A stretch of DNA of 64,000 nt. Origin: Candidatus Methanoperedens sp. (GTDB lineage: Archaea; Halobacteriota; Methanosarcinia; Methanosarcinales; Methanoperedenaceae). The notes beneath the pieces were generated by a model, which worked only from the letters and a program-made list of their open reading frames with translations, had not been told where the DNA came from and searched no databases. The stretch is taken from assembly GCA_028715885.1 (NCBI GenBank), contig JAQUQX010000004.1, positions 1-64,000 of the forward strand. The letters are read 5' to 3'. The position numbers and the translations under genes were made by a program. This document shows, in pieces, positions 28,556 through 36,515 of the stretch (position 1 is the stretch's first letter; each line of letters opens with the position of its first letter).

Positions 28556-29572
28556 TTATGGTTTGTCAAACGTCAGTGCGCCAACTGACATATTGATGGC
28601 AATCTCCGCAATGTCCCCGCTGTAACTTGCTATTCTCCCAAGGCTGTCAAGCATGGCTTTTTGCAGGATAGCAGATTGAATATTTTGTGGTTGTAGCAAT
28701 TCGTTTGAAAGGTCGGAATGAGATTTTTTAATCTCTTTGAGCTCATGGAAAATTTTCTCAGCCATTGCGTTATTTCTTGTAAATAACGCATGAACCGATT
28801 TTTCGAAAATTACAATTATATCGTTATTGAGCTTTATAAAATCATTCAGCGGTGTATCCTTCTGGACTTCCAATAATTGAATATAGCTCTTTGCTATATT
28901 TTCAATATGGTCTGCAATCCGCTCAAGCGCTTTGACTGCAATCCTGTACCCAAGGCAATCTCTCTGGTTCTCTATTCCCAGCTTTTCTGCAATCTGCTGG
29001 TATTCCACTGCGCTCTTAAGCTGCCTCACCACCAGAAAATAAAGCCTGTCAATTTCCCGCTCTCTTATCATTACGTCTTTTGCAAGCCCGATATCCACGG
29101 TTTTCAGGGCTTTGCCGAGGTCAAGAAGCATCGACCTGTTGATGGAATACATTCTCTGGAGTATCTGCATGGTGCTCATACGTTTGTAATCCACCATTAT
29201 CTCAAGAGTCATTGCATCGTCTGTGTCCTCGACTATCTCTACACCTATCAGATAGTCCATGACCTTGCGTATGCTCTTTCTATATGGAAGATGGTCTTTC
29301 CTGTCCAATTTAATCCTGATTGTGTCATAACCCACAAGATAAAACGCAATAATTATACGTTCAAGAGCCTCGTTCGATGTTACTTGTGAGATTTTAATCT
29401 CCTTCACCTGCGACTCTTTTTCAATAACACTGGTTTCGATCAGTAATGAACTGCCATGTTCCGTAACCACCAGCGAGTCTCCAGGCTTCAGGTTAGTCTT
29501 CGTAACCCATTTTTTGGGTAGTGAGATTACATAGGTTGAGCCGCCACTTACATAGACTTTTCTTGCTTCCAT
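28556..29572 (-). CDS. AbrB-PhoU fusion, probable phosphate regulator
   Basis: The 338-residue product joins a SpoVT/AbrB-like DNA-binding domain (residues 1-50: KVYVSGGSTYVISLPKKWV, LKPGDSLVVTEH) to a PhoU-like helical region (about 125-335) with two PhoU repeats, including GYRIAVKALERIADHIENIA and KAMLDSLGRIASYSGDIAE. PhoU proteins sense the state of phosphate uptake; with a DNA-binding head this protein is a likely transcription regulator of the phosphate island that follows. A TATA-like CTATAAAATATC (minus strand, near 29600) puts the start of transcription next to the ATG. The shared element at 29584 lies directly upstream and overlaps that promoter, so autoregulation is likely. Confidence 0.92.
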   Translation of the reverse strand: MEARKVYVSGGSTYVISLPKKWVTKTNLKPGDSLVVTEHGSSLLIETSVIEKESQVKEIKISQVTSNEALERIIIAFYLVGYDTIRIKLDRKDHLPYRKSIRKVMDYLIGVEIVEDTDDAMTLEIMVDYKRMSTMQILQRMYSINRSMLLDLGKALKTVDIGLAKDVMIREREIDRLYFLVVRQLKSAVEYQQIAEKLGIENQRDCLGYRIAVKALERIADHIENIAKSYIQLLEVQKDTPLNDFIKLNNDIIVIFEKSVHALFTRNNAMAEKIFHELKEIKKSHSDLSNELLQPQNIQSAILQKAMLDSLGRIASYSGDIAEIAINMSVGALTFDKP

Positions 29573-29583
29573 ATTTATCTTGT

Positions 29584-29640
29584 AATCTACTGATATTTTA
29601 TAGTATATATAGATTCTTGTGACAAAATATATACTTTATA
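29584..29640. promoter_or_regulatory. Pho-box-like element A (divergent promoter)
   Basis: AATCTACTGATATTTTATAG is followed by TATATATAGATTCTTGTGAC and AAAATATATACTTTAT. AATCTA and TAGATT form an inverted repeat with 20 bases between them. The element is shared, with strong identity over about 55 bases, with 32630, 33709 and 35312. Here it lies between the AbrB-PhoU gene (minus) and the microprotein gene at 29668 (plus). Confidence 0.75.
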
Positions 29641-29667
29641 ATTAGAATTATCAGTTTGGTGAAAGAA

Positions 29668-30074: not shown

Positions 30075-30138
30075 CAAAATTGAATTTTTCCTATTAACTC
30101 TTCTTTTCATACTCGCATTCTGGATGGTGGTTAAATGA
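30061..30138 (+). CDS. 25-residue single-TM microprotein upstream of psiE
   Basis: The frame ATG 30061 to TGA 30136-30138 encodes MQRFSKIEFFLLTLLFILAF plus a short WMVVK end: a basic start, one hydrophobic helix and a Lys end. It overlaps the preceding gene by 14 bases, and its stop overlaps the psiE start codon in an ATGA arrangement. The double overlap and membrane-helix composition argue that it is translated. Membrane microproteins next to transporters or PsiE could act as subunits; this is inference. Confidence 0.55.
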   Translation: MQRFSKIEFFLLTLLFILAFWMVVK

Positions 30139-30550
30139 TAGACCATCCAAAAATGTTCAAAAAAATTACTGATTCCATTGTTACCATCGTCCTGTATGTA
30201 CTGTTGTTGGCTCTCATTGCAGGAACGCTGCGGATATTACTTGATATCCACACTGTTGCGATAGACTCGCTCGATGGTGGTTTTAACAAAATAGTTACTA
30301 ACGTTCTCACGCTTTTTATTGTGATTGAGTTCTTCAAGACCTTTGCAGACTATTCCAAACATGAAAGAATCAAGCTCACCGACATAACCGACGTCACGAT
30401 TTTAATAGCTATGCGTGAGGTCACTGTCGGGCTTTATTCCAAATCGTTGGATTCGAAACTATTTTCGCCCTATCTGCGCTGCTACTGGTGCTTGGAGTGA
30501 TAAGGGTGCTGGCTGTCAGGTACTCGCCGGAGAAGGTTTTAGTAACATGA
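30135..30550 (+). pseudogene. psiE: psiE-family gene with a -1 frameshift
   Basis: PsiE-family proteins are four-helix membrane proteins induced by phosphate starvation. The first 105 residues match: ALIAGTLRILLDIH, TNVLTLFIVIEFFKTF and ITDVTILIAMREVTVGLYSK. In the annotated frame the protein then ends early after a non-family tail, SPYLRCYWCLE. From 30449 the frame shifted by -1 continues as GFETIFALSALLLVLGVIRV and LAVRYSPEKVLVT, which is the missing fourth helix and the usual C-terminus. One base has been lost around 30445-30455, in the genome or in sequencing. No classic slippery site is seen. The start overlaps the 25-residue gene. Confidence 0.8.
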
Positions 30551-32629: not shown

Positions 32630-32685
32630 AATCTACTGACTTTATTTAGTATATATAGATTATTGAGATAAAATATATAATATTT
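32630..32685 (+). promoter_or_regulatory. Pho-box-like element B
   Basis: AATCTACTGACTTTATTTAG is followed by TATATATAGATTATTGAGAT and AAAATATATAATAT. It aligns without gaps with elements A, C and D. AATCTA/TAGATT flank 20 bases. The AATATATAAT end is a TATA box about 26 bases before the ATG at 32704, so the TIM-barrel gene should be leaderless and directly controlled. Confidence 0.78.
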
Positions 32686-32703
32686 AGAGTAAAGCTATAG
32701 CGC

Positions 32704-33591
32704 ATGAATACAAAAACAGGCATAAACTCTCCTCAGATAAAAGATTTTGGAGGAGCCATAGATCCATGTGAAGTGGAAATTATTGAGCTTGGTCTCGACA
32801 GGGTGAATTTTTTAGAAAAACAGAAAGAGGAGGAGATATTATCCAAAGCTGCACATCTCGCCTCGTCTTTTGGCACCGAATTTACTATTCATGCTCCACA
32901 TATCGATTCCAGGATAGAGGAAATAAGGATAGACTTTTCAGTAATCAACGCAAAAAATTTTATAATCATGGGAAACGTTTTCGAAATTGCCTCAAAAACA
33001 GGGGCAAAATACATAGTTGTTCACCCGGGTCATCAGAACGGCTCAAAAAAATGCTTTAATTTCAACATACTTAATTTAATTAAACTGTGTAAAGTAGCTG
33101 AGGAATACGGTGCTACCCTTCTTTTAGAAAACCTGTTTGACAGGCAGGGAGGAAATAAAATTGGTGTGTTGCCGGGCGAAATTTACCGTATAATTGAAAT
33201 GGTAGAGTCAGAAAATTTAAAGATTAATCTTGATATTGGACATGCGTTTATTGCATCAACTGCATACCGGTTGCCAATGGAAGATTATTTTGAGCTCGGC
33301 GAGTACGTATATCAAATGCATCTTCATGATAACTTTGGTACTCTGGAGTCTGAAGCAACGATGTTCGGGGATCGCCATCTATCTTTAGGACAGGGGAAAA
33401 TAAATTTCGGGGAAGTATTTAAAAACATTTTAAAAACTAATGTAAGGAACCTGATTCTTGAAGTTAAACACGCATCAAAAGAGGAAATCCTCAAAAGCCT
33501 TGCACAAATAAGAGATTTTCGCAATTTGAAAGCTGGTTTAATGTCTCCCAGAATAACCTGTTGCGTTAAGCCTGCTGTGGTATGCTTTTAG
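32704..33591 (+). CDS. TIM-barrel sugar-isomerase/AP-endonuclease-like protein
   Basis: The 295-residue product has the xylose-isomerase-like (AP endonuclease 2) barrel: EFTIHAPHID near 58, YIVVHPGHQNG near 102, LLLENLFDRQGG near 140, LDIGHAFIAS near 178, YQMHLHDNFG near 205 and LILEVKH near 255. The His/Glu/Asp set fits three divalent metals. Members are sugar epimerases or endonuclease IV-like nucleases; the substrate is not known. It starts right behind Pho-like element B, so it probably responds to phosphate. The C-terminal 25 residues, with two Cys, lie outside the barrel. Confidence 0.85.
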   Translation: MNTKTGINSPQIKDFGGAIDPCEVEIIELGLDRVNFLEKQKEEEILSKAAHLASSFGTEFTIHAPHIDSRIEEIRIDFSVINAKNFIIMGNVFEIASKTGAKYIVVHPGHQNGSKKCFNFNILNLIKLCKVAEEYGATLLLENLFDRQGGNKIGVLPGEIYRIIEMVESENLKINLDIGHAFIASTAYRLPMEDYFELGEYVYQMHLHDNFGTLESEATMFGDRHLSLGQGKINFGEVFKNILKTNVRNLILEVKHASKEEILKSLAQIRDFRNLKAGLMSPRITCCVKPAVVCF

Positions 33592-33598
33592 GAGGAAA

Positions 33599-33718
33599 AT
33601 GAAAGCAAGAGTTGTTTATATCGAGCCTGAGAAAGCAAAGAGGATTAATGAAATTCTTGCAGCAGAAAGAGAATTTCATGAAGCAAAGGAAAACGTTTGG
33701 AATCCTAAAATTTACTGA
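33599..33718 (+). CDS. 39-residue microprotein after the TIM-barrel gene
   Basis: The frame from ATG 33599 (behind AGGAGGA) to TGA 33716-33718 gives 39 residues: MKARVVYIEPEKAKRINEIL, then AAEREFHEAKENVWNPKIY. It starts 7 bases after the TIM-barrel stop, so the two are likely one transcript. The helix is highly charged. Its last codons are also the first bases of Pho-like element C. No family is recognised. Confidence 0.6.
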   Translation: MKARVVYIEPEKAKRINEILAAEREFHEAKENVWNPKIY

Positions 33719-33765
33719 TTTTATATAACATCTATAGATTATTGGGAGAAAGTATATATTATTTT
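33709..33765 (+). promoter_or_regulatory. Pho-box-like element C
   Basis: AATTTACTGATTTTATATAA is followed by CATCTATAGATTATTGGGAG and AAAGTATATATTATTT. It is nearly the same as element D upstream of pstS, and the similarity continues into the first codons of the pstS copy at 33796. The inner ATCTATAGAT is a perfect palindrome. Confidence 0.78.
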
Positions 33766-33795
33766 ATGCCAAAACTCCCGCTGTGATTAGACAAA

Positions 33796-33912
33796 ATGAA
33801 TCGATTAAAAACAATACAAATTTTGATTCTGGCAGGCGTACAGCCTGCGGTACAGCCGACTGCAACAGTGCAGCCCAAAAAATCTCTGGAAAAATATGGG
33901 GGTAAAGAATAA
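33796..33912 (+). pseudogene. Truncated pstS 5' copy acting as a leader ORF
   Basis: This 38-codon frame begins MNRLKTIQILILAGV, like PstS (MNRLKIILILVLAGV), then jumps to the PstS linker (QPTATVQP) and ends KSLEKYGGKE. The lipobox Cys has been deleted, so it cannot be a lipoprotein. About 130 bp, from element C through the signal sequence, match the pstS upstream region at 35312-35444. Its stop TAA overlaps the ATG of the S-layer gene by one base (TAATG), so it now acts as a coupled leader for that gene. Confidence 0.8.
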
Positions 33913-35174
33913 TGTGTAAAAAAATAACAGCAGTTGCATTAGTAACGTTAATGCTATTAGCAGCTTTACCCGCAAATGCAGCTATACAAGCAACAAAAGT
34001 GGAAATTCGAGGAGCGACAGCGAGCACGATAGAAAAAACGATTCCGTCTGGCGGCTTTAACCTGACCAACATTGTCAATGCACCGGTTAACTGGACGCCA
34101 CAGGGCTTTGCAGGTTTCTACTACGACCTGAAAGACGAGCTGGGCAGAGAGGAATTGGAGATACTCCAGACAGACCTATCAAAGAATCAGAGAGCTGTTG
34201 GAGAAAATAACTTAGTTTACAGAACTACTGCCCAGAAAAAGAAGCTGAAGGTTGTAAACGATGGGTTTAATGGTAGTGCAAGTGCGGCAACAGAAGCAGG
34301 TCTGGAGAAAGTAGGAAGTGCGTTTACCAGCAGCGGTGAATACCTCATCATGGGTTGGCAGGGAGAGAAATATATAGCCGTGAACAACAAGATTGATATA
34401 ATCAGCAAGCTTCTCTTTGAGCATGGAGCCACTGCTAATGAGAAGAAAACCTTAGCTGTAGGAGAGAAGTGGGATATAGGCGATGGCTGGGAACTCATTG
34501 CCCAGAGCATAGACGCTAAAGCATCACCAAGACAGGTATGGCTCACGTTGAGCTATAAGGGACAGAAGCTTGATGATAAAGTAGTCGCCCAGGGTAAAAT
34601 ATACACTTACGTTGAGAAGAGTATCGCAGAGGAGAGCGATGTGCCCATGTTCGTGACCAAGGTTGATAGCGTATTCGCAGGCGCAGATGGCGACATGGCT
34701 CAGTTAAGATTTACATGGGTGGTCTCTCGCAATGTAACAAAAATCAAGTCAGGAGAAACGATTGGAGCATTCAAAGTCAAGGACATAAACCAAACAGGTC
34801 TGCGTCTGGAACTTAAAAACGAGAAAATAATAACTCTTGACCAGAATGCGGTTATTGATCTAATTGGCAATATTAAATTAAAGGTGGCGGATAAAGCAGA
34901 TGTGCTCAGGCTCTACCCCAAGGTCGACTACGAGATGGCAAGCGCAAAACCAGCCACAACATCAACTATAACACCAATTGCAACGCCAACCATAATAGAA
35001 ACTGTAGCAACCAAAGCATTATCCATAACACCAACTATAACATCAACACCAGCGATTAACACTCCTGCACCGCCTGAGCCTCGTGTAACGTCGACTCTCG
35101 AAATGCCGGGATTTGAGGCTGTGTTCGCAATTTCAGGCTTGCTTGCGGTGGCATACCTTGTGCTGAGAAAGTAA
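33912..35174 (+). CDS. S-layer-family protein with PGF-CTERM anchor
   Basis: A surface protein of 420 residues: signal peptide (KITAVALVTLMLLAALPANA), an S-layer-duplication domain like those of Methanosarcina S-layer proteins (VNWTPQGFAGFYYDLKDELG, SSGEYLIMGWQGEKYIAV, WDIGDGWELIAQSIDAK), a Thr/Pro-rich stalk (about 340-395) and a C-terminal PGF-CTERM segment, EMPGFEAVFAISGLLAVAYL followed by basic VLRK. It should be processed by archaeosortase A. The gene is coupled to the truncated pstS leader and lies under Pho-like element C, so it may be a phosphate-controlled S-layer variant. An 8-bp hairpin terminator follows. Confidence 0.9.
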   Translation: MCKKITAVALVTLMLLAALPANAAIQATKVEIRGATASTIEKTIPSGGFNLTNIVNAPVNWTPQGFAGFYYDLKDELGREELEILQTDLSKNQRAVGENNLVYRTTAQKKKLKVVNDGFNGSASAATEAGLEKVGSAFTSSGEYLIMGWQGEKYIAVNNKIDIISKLLFEHGATANEKKTLAVGEKWDIGDGWELIAQSIDAKASPRQVWLTLSYKGQKLDDKVVAQGKIYTYVEKSIAEESDVPMFVTKVDSVFAGADGDMAQLRFTWVVSRNVTKIKSGETIGAFKVKDINQTGLRLELKNEKIITLDQNAVIDLIGNIKLKVADKADVLRLYPKVDYEMASAKPATTSTITPIATPTIIETVATKALSITPTITSTPAINTPAPPEPRVTSTLEMPGFEAVFAISGLLAVAYLVLRK

Positions 35175-35177
35175 GTA

Positions 35178-35210
35178 TGAAGGGTGTAACCCTTCACATT
35201 TTCTTTTTTT
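35178..35210 (+). terminator. Strong hairpin terminator after the S-layer gene
   Basis: TGAAGGGT-GTA-ACCCTTCA (35178-35196) is a perfect 8-bp stem, followed by ATTTTCTTTTTTT. It insulates the S-layer unit from pstS. Confidence 0.8.
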
Positions 35211-35311
35211 GTTAACTTTGGGCGCACAGGATAGCGCGGCTTTAAGTGCAAGCTATAAGGGTGCACTCCTATGAATCCGCGTATCTGGAAAACAAACGTT
35301 CAGAATTTTAA

Positions 35312-35368
35312 AATTTACTGATTTTATATAGTATCTATAGATTCTTGGGAGAAGCTATATATTATTTG
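35312..35368 (+). promoter_or_regulatory. Pho-box-like element D (pstSCAB promoter)
   Basis: AATTTACTGATTTTATATAG is followed by TATCTATAGATTCTTGGGAG and AAGCTATATATTATTT. The CTATATATTAT end is the TATA box, giving a leader of about 25 bases before pstS at 35400. It is one of four copies, each next to a phosphate-island gene. Confidence 0.82.
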
Positions 35369-35399
35369 ATGCTAAAACTCCTGCTGGTGATTAAACAAA

Positions 35400-36515
35400 A
35401 TGAATCGATTAAAGATAATTCTAATTCTGGTTCTGGCAGGCGTGTTGATAGCTGGATGTGTAAGCAAGCCGCCTGCCGAAGTACAGCCTACAGTGCAACC
35501 GACTGCAACCGTGCAGCCCACAAAAGCCCCGTCAACCTTAACTTTAAACGGCGCAGGTGCAACATTCCCATATCCCCTTATATCCAAATGGAGTTCGGAA
35601 TATAACAAAATAAAGCCGAATGTCCAGATCAATTACCAGAGCGTGGGAAGCGGCGCTGGTATAAAGCAAATAACCGAAAAAACAGTAGATTTTGGCGCCA
35701 GTGATGCGCCTCTCTCAGATAAGGAATACGCAAATGTTTCGGGACTCCTGCAAATACCCGAGTCCATAGGCGCGGTAGTTGTGGCATACAACCTCCCCGG
35801 CATACAGAAGGGAGTGAAATTGAGCGGCGATGTGGTCGCAGACATTTTCCTCGGGAAAATCACAAAATGGAACGACCCCAGGATTGTTTCGCTTAATCCC
35901 GGCATCCAGTTCCCGGCAAAGGACATTATCGTAGCGCACAGGAGTGATGGAAGCGGCACAACTTTCGTCTTCACGGATTATCTTTCAGCGGTAAGCCCTG
36001 ACTGGAAATCAAAAGCTGGAAAGGGTAAATCCGTCAACTGGCCTGTCGGTCTTGGCGGGAAAGGCAACGAGGGCGTTGCAGGTCTCTTAAGCCAGAACCC
36101 TTATGCCATAGGATATATCGAGCTGGCTTATGCTAAACTCCAGAACATCCCATATGCGTATATAAAGAACAAAGCAGGAAAGTTTATCGAGCCCACGCTT
36201 GAGACAACTGCAAGTGCTGCGGCAGGCGCAGTGTCAACGCTGCCCGCAGGCGATGCAAGCTGGTCATCCGTAAGTATTGTGGATGCACCGGGAGATAATT
36301 CATATCCCATCGGCAGTTTTACCTATCTTCTTGTCTACAAAGACCAGGCAGATAAGACAAAGGGTAAAGCACTGGCTGAATATCTCTGGTGGGTAATACA
36401 CGATGGTCAGCAATATTCCGCAGACCTGCTGTATGTACCATTGCCAAAAGAAGTCGTAAGCTTGAATGAAAAAACCATAAAGCTTATGAACTATAATGGG
36501 CAACCACTGATTTAG
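35400..36515 (+). CDS. pstS: Phosphate ABC transporter substrate-binding lipoprotein PstS
   Basis: PstS binds phosphate outside the cell and delivers it to PstCA. The 371-residue protein has a lipobox (LIAGC, Cys20), a Pro/Thr linker (about 22-42) and the PBP domain: LNGAGATFPYPLISKWSSEY, NYQSVGSGAGIKQI, DFGASDAPLSD, AHRSDGSGTTFVFTDYL and a C-terminal VYKDQADKTKGKALAEYLWW. The phosphate loops SGAG, SDAP and SDGSGTT are intact. It is the first gene of pstSCAB-phoU, behind element D. Confidence 0.97.
   Translation: MNRLKIILILVLAGVLIAGCVSKPPAEVQPTVQPTATVQPTKAPSTLTLNGAGATFPYPLISKWSSEYNKIKPNVQINYQSVGSGAGIKQITEKTVDFGASDAPLSDKEYANVSGLLQIPESIGAVVVAYNLPGIQKGVKLSGDVVADIFLGKITKWNDPRIVSLNPGIQFPAKDIIVAHRSDGSGTTFVFTDYLSAVSPDWKSKAGKGKSVNWPVGLGGKGNEGVAGLLSQNPYAIGYIELAYAKLQNIPYAYIKNKAGKFIEPTLETTASAAAGAVSTLPAGDASWSSVSIVDAPGDNSYPIGSFTYLLVYKDQADKTKGKALAEYLWWVIHDGQQYSADLLYVPLPKEVVSLNEKTIKLMNYNGQPLI

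Follow-up and report, generated by a model that had tools for sequence, protein, structure and literature searches.

The stretch of Candidatus Methanoperedens sp. DNA analysed here (the window; 64,000 nucleotides, contig JAQUQX010000004.1 of GenBank assembly GCA_028715885.1) carries an S-layer gene that lies between two copies of the start of pstS, directly behind what resembles a phosphate-gene promoter. The arrangement raises the question of how a cell-surface gene came to occupy this position, and whether it now answers to the phosphate state of the cell. The features on which the argument depends are collected in Table 1.

Table 1. Features of the window that bear on the S-layer gene and the phosphate genes around it.
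Feature	Position	Strand	Evidence
Candidate regulator: fusion of PhoU with an AbrB-type DNA-binding domain	28556-29572	-	PF04014 E 6.7e-8; PF01895 E 4.4e-21
Third operator copy, with the minus-strand AbrB-PhoU gene on one side and the psiE side on the other	29584-29642	+	R1 E 6.7e-14
Fourth operator copy, before TIM-barrel gene 32704-33591	32630-32688	+	R1 E 7.1e-14; gene PF01261
Left copy of duplicated pstS promoter and start, at the ancestral pstS position	33691-33882	+	Alignment to 35294-35525; flank 33500-33690 matches, at 87-89%, sequence leading directly into pstS in G010
Pho-type operator/promoter before leader and S-layer gene, putatively captured (operator, purine-rich BRE-like stretch, TATA box)	33709-33767	+	R1 52.3 bits, E 8.8e-14
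Degenerate pstS signal sequence, 38 codons, without lipobox	33796-33912	+	ORF list, alignment
Cassette of the S-layer gene, with ribosome site (GGGGGT), coding sequence and terminator of its own; without native promoter and 5' leader	33890-35210	+	DNA homology to S-layer paralogs
S-layer protein of 420 aa with one S-layer domain and a PGF-CTERM anchor	33912-35174	+	PF07752 E 7.8e-50; PF18204 E 4.4e-10; TIGR01567 E 1.2e-47
Hairpin then T-run, likely S-layer terminator	35178-35215	+	Terminator scan; shared with paralogs to 35210
Mosaic tail: start fragment of an unrelated gene (35234-35266) and fragment of a nitrate-reductase-delta (NarJ-type) gene (35261-35298)	35234-35298	+	Joints GTGCAC, AAACG
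Pho-type operator/promoter of complete pstS	35312-35370	+	R1 59.4 bits, E 5e-16
pstS, phosphate-binding lipoprotein, first gene of pstSCAB-phoU	35400-36515	+	TIGR00975 E 2.7e-123; PF12849

The two pstS starts are repeats of one another, with an identity of about 87% over ~192 nt in a gapped alignment, and a whole-genome BLAST search with 33691-33790 as query recovers the pstS copy at E 3.2e-28, far beyond chance. The duplication proposed in a sequence-only reading of this DNA is thus real, but longer than the 130 bp given there. At the ribosome site of the leader a single G is absent from the left copy (GGTGAT to GTGAT), and an in-frame gap of 39 nt after 33837 has removed the pstS lipobox codons (LIAGC) together with the codons that follow, so that the lipobox cysteine expected of a PstS lipoprotein was lost by deletion, as that reading had supposed. 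The arrangement is known from one draft assembly (2.09 Mb, 78 contigs), a circumstance that would favour an artefact in which an S-layer contig was wrongly joined into the pst locus; however, repeats with differences at 12% of their positions, and two deletions besides, would not mislead an assembler, and the junctions contain unique mosaic sequence while the left copy has private mutations, which makes such an artefact highly improbable.

What remains of the pstS reading frame in the left copy is the 38-codon leader, the TAA of which (33910-33912) shares one base with the ATG of the S-layer gene (33912) in the overlap TAATG described earlier. The possibility that the leader is a conserved gene in its own right was considered and rejected, as no relative has the sequence except as the start of a pstS gene; the alignments identify it as a pstS start in decay. 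The one-base stop/start overlap and the in-frame nature of the deletion do preserve a 38-codon ORF, which could be read as a functional upstream ORF whose translation, ending in TAATG, couples to and tunes that of the S-layer gene. We consider this unlikely, as the S-layer gene keeps its own ribosome site like its paralogs, the ribosome site of the leader is short of one G, and polar residues interrupt the hydrophobic core of the signal. Since the S-layer gene has a ribosome site of its own, the TAATG overlap may be incidental.

The S-layer gene itself is intact, and encodes a signal peptide, a full S-layer domain (PF07752 positions 8-259 of 259, 169.8 bits against a cutoff of 30; TIGR01567, 162.5 against 121.9) and a PGF-CTERM anchor (PF18204, 39.6 bits against 18.8; TIGR04126 slightly under its cutoff, 22.1 against 24.5). 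These are the traits of the PF07752/TIGR01567 S-layer family of Methanosarcinales, from which the window protein departs in that it has only one domain and that its promoter does not resemble those of the paralogs. Many paralogs in the genus match the S-layer domain twice in one open frame, an arrangement that is common there and not required for membership; the window protein has one stretch only, and single-domain relatives do exist (G000:C25, G016:C92). No close ortholog of the protein was found, the best matches reaching 56-59%. At the DNA level, homology to the paralogs starts at 33890 and, in several loci, stops at 35209-35215. Upstream of the equivalent of 33890 a 5' leader, TCTTGCCGTAAAATCGGCATCTCGAAGGAG...CCATATAAAAATATGGAGG, is shared by the paralogs; all but its final portion, which includes the ribosome site, is missing from the window. 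Because paralog homology is limited to 33890-~35210, the cassette extends from ribosome site to terminator and the native promoter is gone; with the native 5' region ending at 33890 and the donor promoter present in duplicate, the locus has the form expected of promoter capture. The native 5' leaders (L153, at G000:C3 about 84050-84350; L228, L229, L233 and L235) have short inverted repeats (GCCG..CGGC, CCATAT..ATATGG) next to the ribosome site, and gave no match in Rfam.

The promoter that now precedes the S-layer gene belongs to a class that can be recognized across the genus. A profile of 45 elements (R1, alignment A1) detects four strong sites, and no more, in the 2.09-Mb assembly (29585, 32631, 33710 and 35313), with E values of 5.0e-16 to 8.8e-14 and a next best site at E 1.3, and places one of these at promoter distance from the S-layer gene. 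The supposition that a 60-bp element was confined to two places did not hold, as two further copies are found at 29579 and 32625. The element is present in 31/31 Methanoperedens genomes searched. Clustering of the genes behind 114 sites in Methanoperedens genomes gives, as first gene, pstS in 26 genomes, a psiE-type gene in 17 (often several hundred bases downstream), a TIM-barrel gene in 15 and a second AbrB-PhoU gene in 13, with a few PhoU_div genes as well; in many genomes a divergent AbrB-PhoU gene, too, has the element roughly a dozen bases upstream. Among all of these sites in the 31 genomes, the S-layer gene of the window is the only one of its kind behind the element. The presence of PsiE in the window was confirmed by PF06146, and the psiE-type gene at 30135-30500 has an apparent frameshift near its 3' end with respect to relatives of 135 aa. 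Outside the genus it is the core of the element, TT(C/A)TTGGGAnAAnnTATATA with an AT-rich operator upstream, that recurs: 19 sites were fetched from other genera and families of the order (L256-L274; the best-scoring sites rather than a random sample), of which 15 are upstream of pst genes, two are beside AbrB-PhoU genes, one of them also preceding a PhoU_div-Pit operon, and two are unlinked. These associations make a strong link between the element and phosphate genes. In a Methanosarcina-type genus the core model gave weak matches only, unlinked to pst promoters, and we therefore do not claim the element for the whole order; it appears to be an as yet undescribed Pho operator common to several of its families.

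The order of genes before the insertion is visible in a relative (G010), in which the TIM-barrel gene and a small ORF run directly into a Pho element and a complete pstS. Because this flank, without the insert, matches window positions 33500-33700 at 87-89%, it is the left copy that occupies the ancestral pstS position. The earlier proposal that a phosphate promoter was placed on the S-layer gene is borne out in that the element is a phosphate-gene promoter and the native promoter has been lost, but the promoter was not simply copied forward, as the left copy keeps the ancestral pstS neighbourhood. On the far side of the cassette, 35234-35266 matches the start of an unrelated gene in three relatives (G017, G029 and G026), and 35261-35298 matches the interior of a nitrate-reductase-delta gene, at 92% in G019 (that gene, PF02613 E 7.8e-27). 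The two fragments share the overlap GTGCAC, the second meets the pstS repeat at AAACG (overlaps of 5-6 bp), and neither was found elsewhere in the genome.

The simplest reading of these joints is that one template-switching excursion made the repeat and the insert together. Starting from the order TIM-barrel gene, small ORF, Pho promoter and pstSCAB-phoU, the mosaic rearrangement that we infer would have left the pstS start at about codon 43, added the S-layer cassette from its own ribosome site to its terminator, continued through short pieces belonging to two further genes and returned to the locus 18 bp ahead of the Pho element. This would leave an intact pst operon behind a second promoter, and the first promoter, with a broken pstS start, would stand before the S-layer gene. 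An alternative route with the same regulatory outcome is single-crossover integration, at pstS, of a circle that carried a pstS start and the S-layer gene and came from a related strain or an extrachromosomal element. Direct repeats do flank the insert, and the pstS start is prone to recombination: in five relatives (G001, G002, G003, G004 and G016; L140, L144, L146, L147 and L150) the promoter and leader are the same but the pstSCAB genes that follow are of another type, as if transporters had been swapped behind a fixed promoter. Yet the left copy has no special kinship to any other genome (79-86% to several), and the patchwork tail with its short overlaps fits microhomology joining better, so that integration of a circle is a possible, though distinctly less favoured, route. 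The same geometry has arisen independently in G003 (L147:12039-13557), where a 310-bp repeat, comprising the end of the TIM gene, the Pho promoter and the pstS start, flanks a PIN-domain toxin-type cassette. The locus at the pstS start is prone to such rearrangements.

Whether the promoter before the S-layer gene still functions may be judged from the substitutions that it has accumulated. Comparison with relatives assigns all five operator differences to the S-layer copy as derived changes, vs 0 for the pstS copy, so that this copy has diverged the faster of the two; because all five are derived there, the constraint on the S-layer copy of the element is weaker than, or different from, that on the pstS copy. 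The operator nevertheless has a motif score of 73.2, above 27/45 elements, whereas sets of five substitutions drawn at random average 57.2; only 0.12% of such sets score as well (p about 0.001), in a test that concerns a single locus and five substitutions and depends on the motif model. The five substitutions fall at positions that are variable in other elements too, and since these are tolerated positions the operator probably still works. Substitution rates of operator and leader within the copied segment do not differ clearly; it is the kind of substitution that differs. The leader, by contrast with the operator, is without its lipobox and part of its ribosome site, a pattern that fits a retained promoter in front of a decaying reading frame.

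From the genomic evidence, we regard regulatory capture of the S-layer gene by the phosphate regulon as the probable explanation. After the rearrangement, the broken pstS start would have decayed through the lipobox deletion and the weakening of its ribosome site, with the operator staying within functional limits; the S-layer gene would be transcribed under phosphate limitation via the pst regulator and translated from its own ribosome site. A rather unlikely alternative is that the cassette is a passive passenger, which entered the pst locus fortuitously and brings no benefit by its transcription from the residual Pho promoter, or is itself heading for decay. The decay of the leader, the five operator changes and the restriction of the arrangement to this genome would all be in keeping with a passenger, and the PIN-domain cassette between similar repeats in the same slot of G003 is more suggestive of an insertion hotspot than of selection for an S-layer gene. 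Against this stand the intact S-layer ORF, complete from signal peptide to anchor, and the avoidance of conserved positions by the operator substitutions. Under regulatory capture, the S-layer protein is probably expressed alongside the pst system under phosphate scarcity, and might then either replace the ordinary S-layer or add to it, with a possible effect on the cell surface.

A candidate for the regulator is encoded in the window itself. The AbrB-PhoU gene is divergent beside one Pho element (28556-29642), and a second fusion of this type is the one counted behind the element above; the regulator shared by pst and the S-layer gene is most plausibly an AbrB-PhoU protein. In the related Methanosarcina mazei, pstSCAB-phoU is upregulated 2.5-6.3-fold under phosphate starvation (PMC6864096), the induction proposed here for the pst operon of Methanoperedens, and the passages of that source considered here name no operator or regulator. 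As the element was not convincingly found in a Methanosarcina-type genus, this induction lends support by analogy only and is no test of the operator. The literature searched, with subscription papers largely outside reach, gave no description of an archaeal Pho operator, an AbrB-PhoU regulator or a phosphate-controlled S-layer. The full account, in which a phosphate-starvation-specific S-layer was built by capture of a Pho promoter in a single microhomology-driven mosaic rearrangement, with an apparently undescribed multi-family operator read by an AbrB-PhoU fusion, is put forward tentatively, and as a whole is less likely than the capture itself.

Both halves of this proposal have bacterial counterparts. 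In the Cit+ lineage of the E. coli long-term experiment, a tandem duplication reportedly put citT under the rnk promoter, and there as here a duplicated segment puts a gene under the promoter of another; the Cit+ innovation is also the subject of PMC5918244. The Methanoperedens case, known from sequence alone, differs in that it concerns an archaeon and a mosaic insert, with the Pho promoter and the first codons of the host gene left before the moved surface gene. Phosphate-controlled envelope proteins are likewise familiar from PhoE of E. coli and OprP/OprO of Pseudomonas, which are made under phosphate starvation with the pst system, as is proposed for the Methanoperedens protein; those are porins, whereas the latter is an S-layer lattice protein of an unrelated family, for which phosphate selectivity is not implied.

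In this locus, from a methane-oxidising archaeon not yet in culture, regulon recruitment can be seen clearly, and a relative still displays the arrangement that came before it. For phosphate control in Methanoperedens and in methane-oxidising archaea related to it, the analysis yields a candidate operator and, encoded next to it, a candidate regulator. Finally, a phosphate-controlled S-layer, if true, would tie the nutrient state of these cells to their electron-exchange surface.
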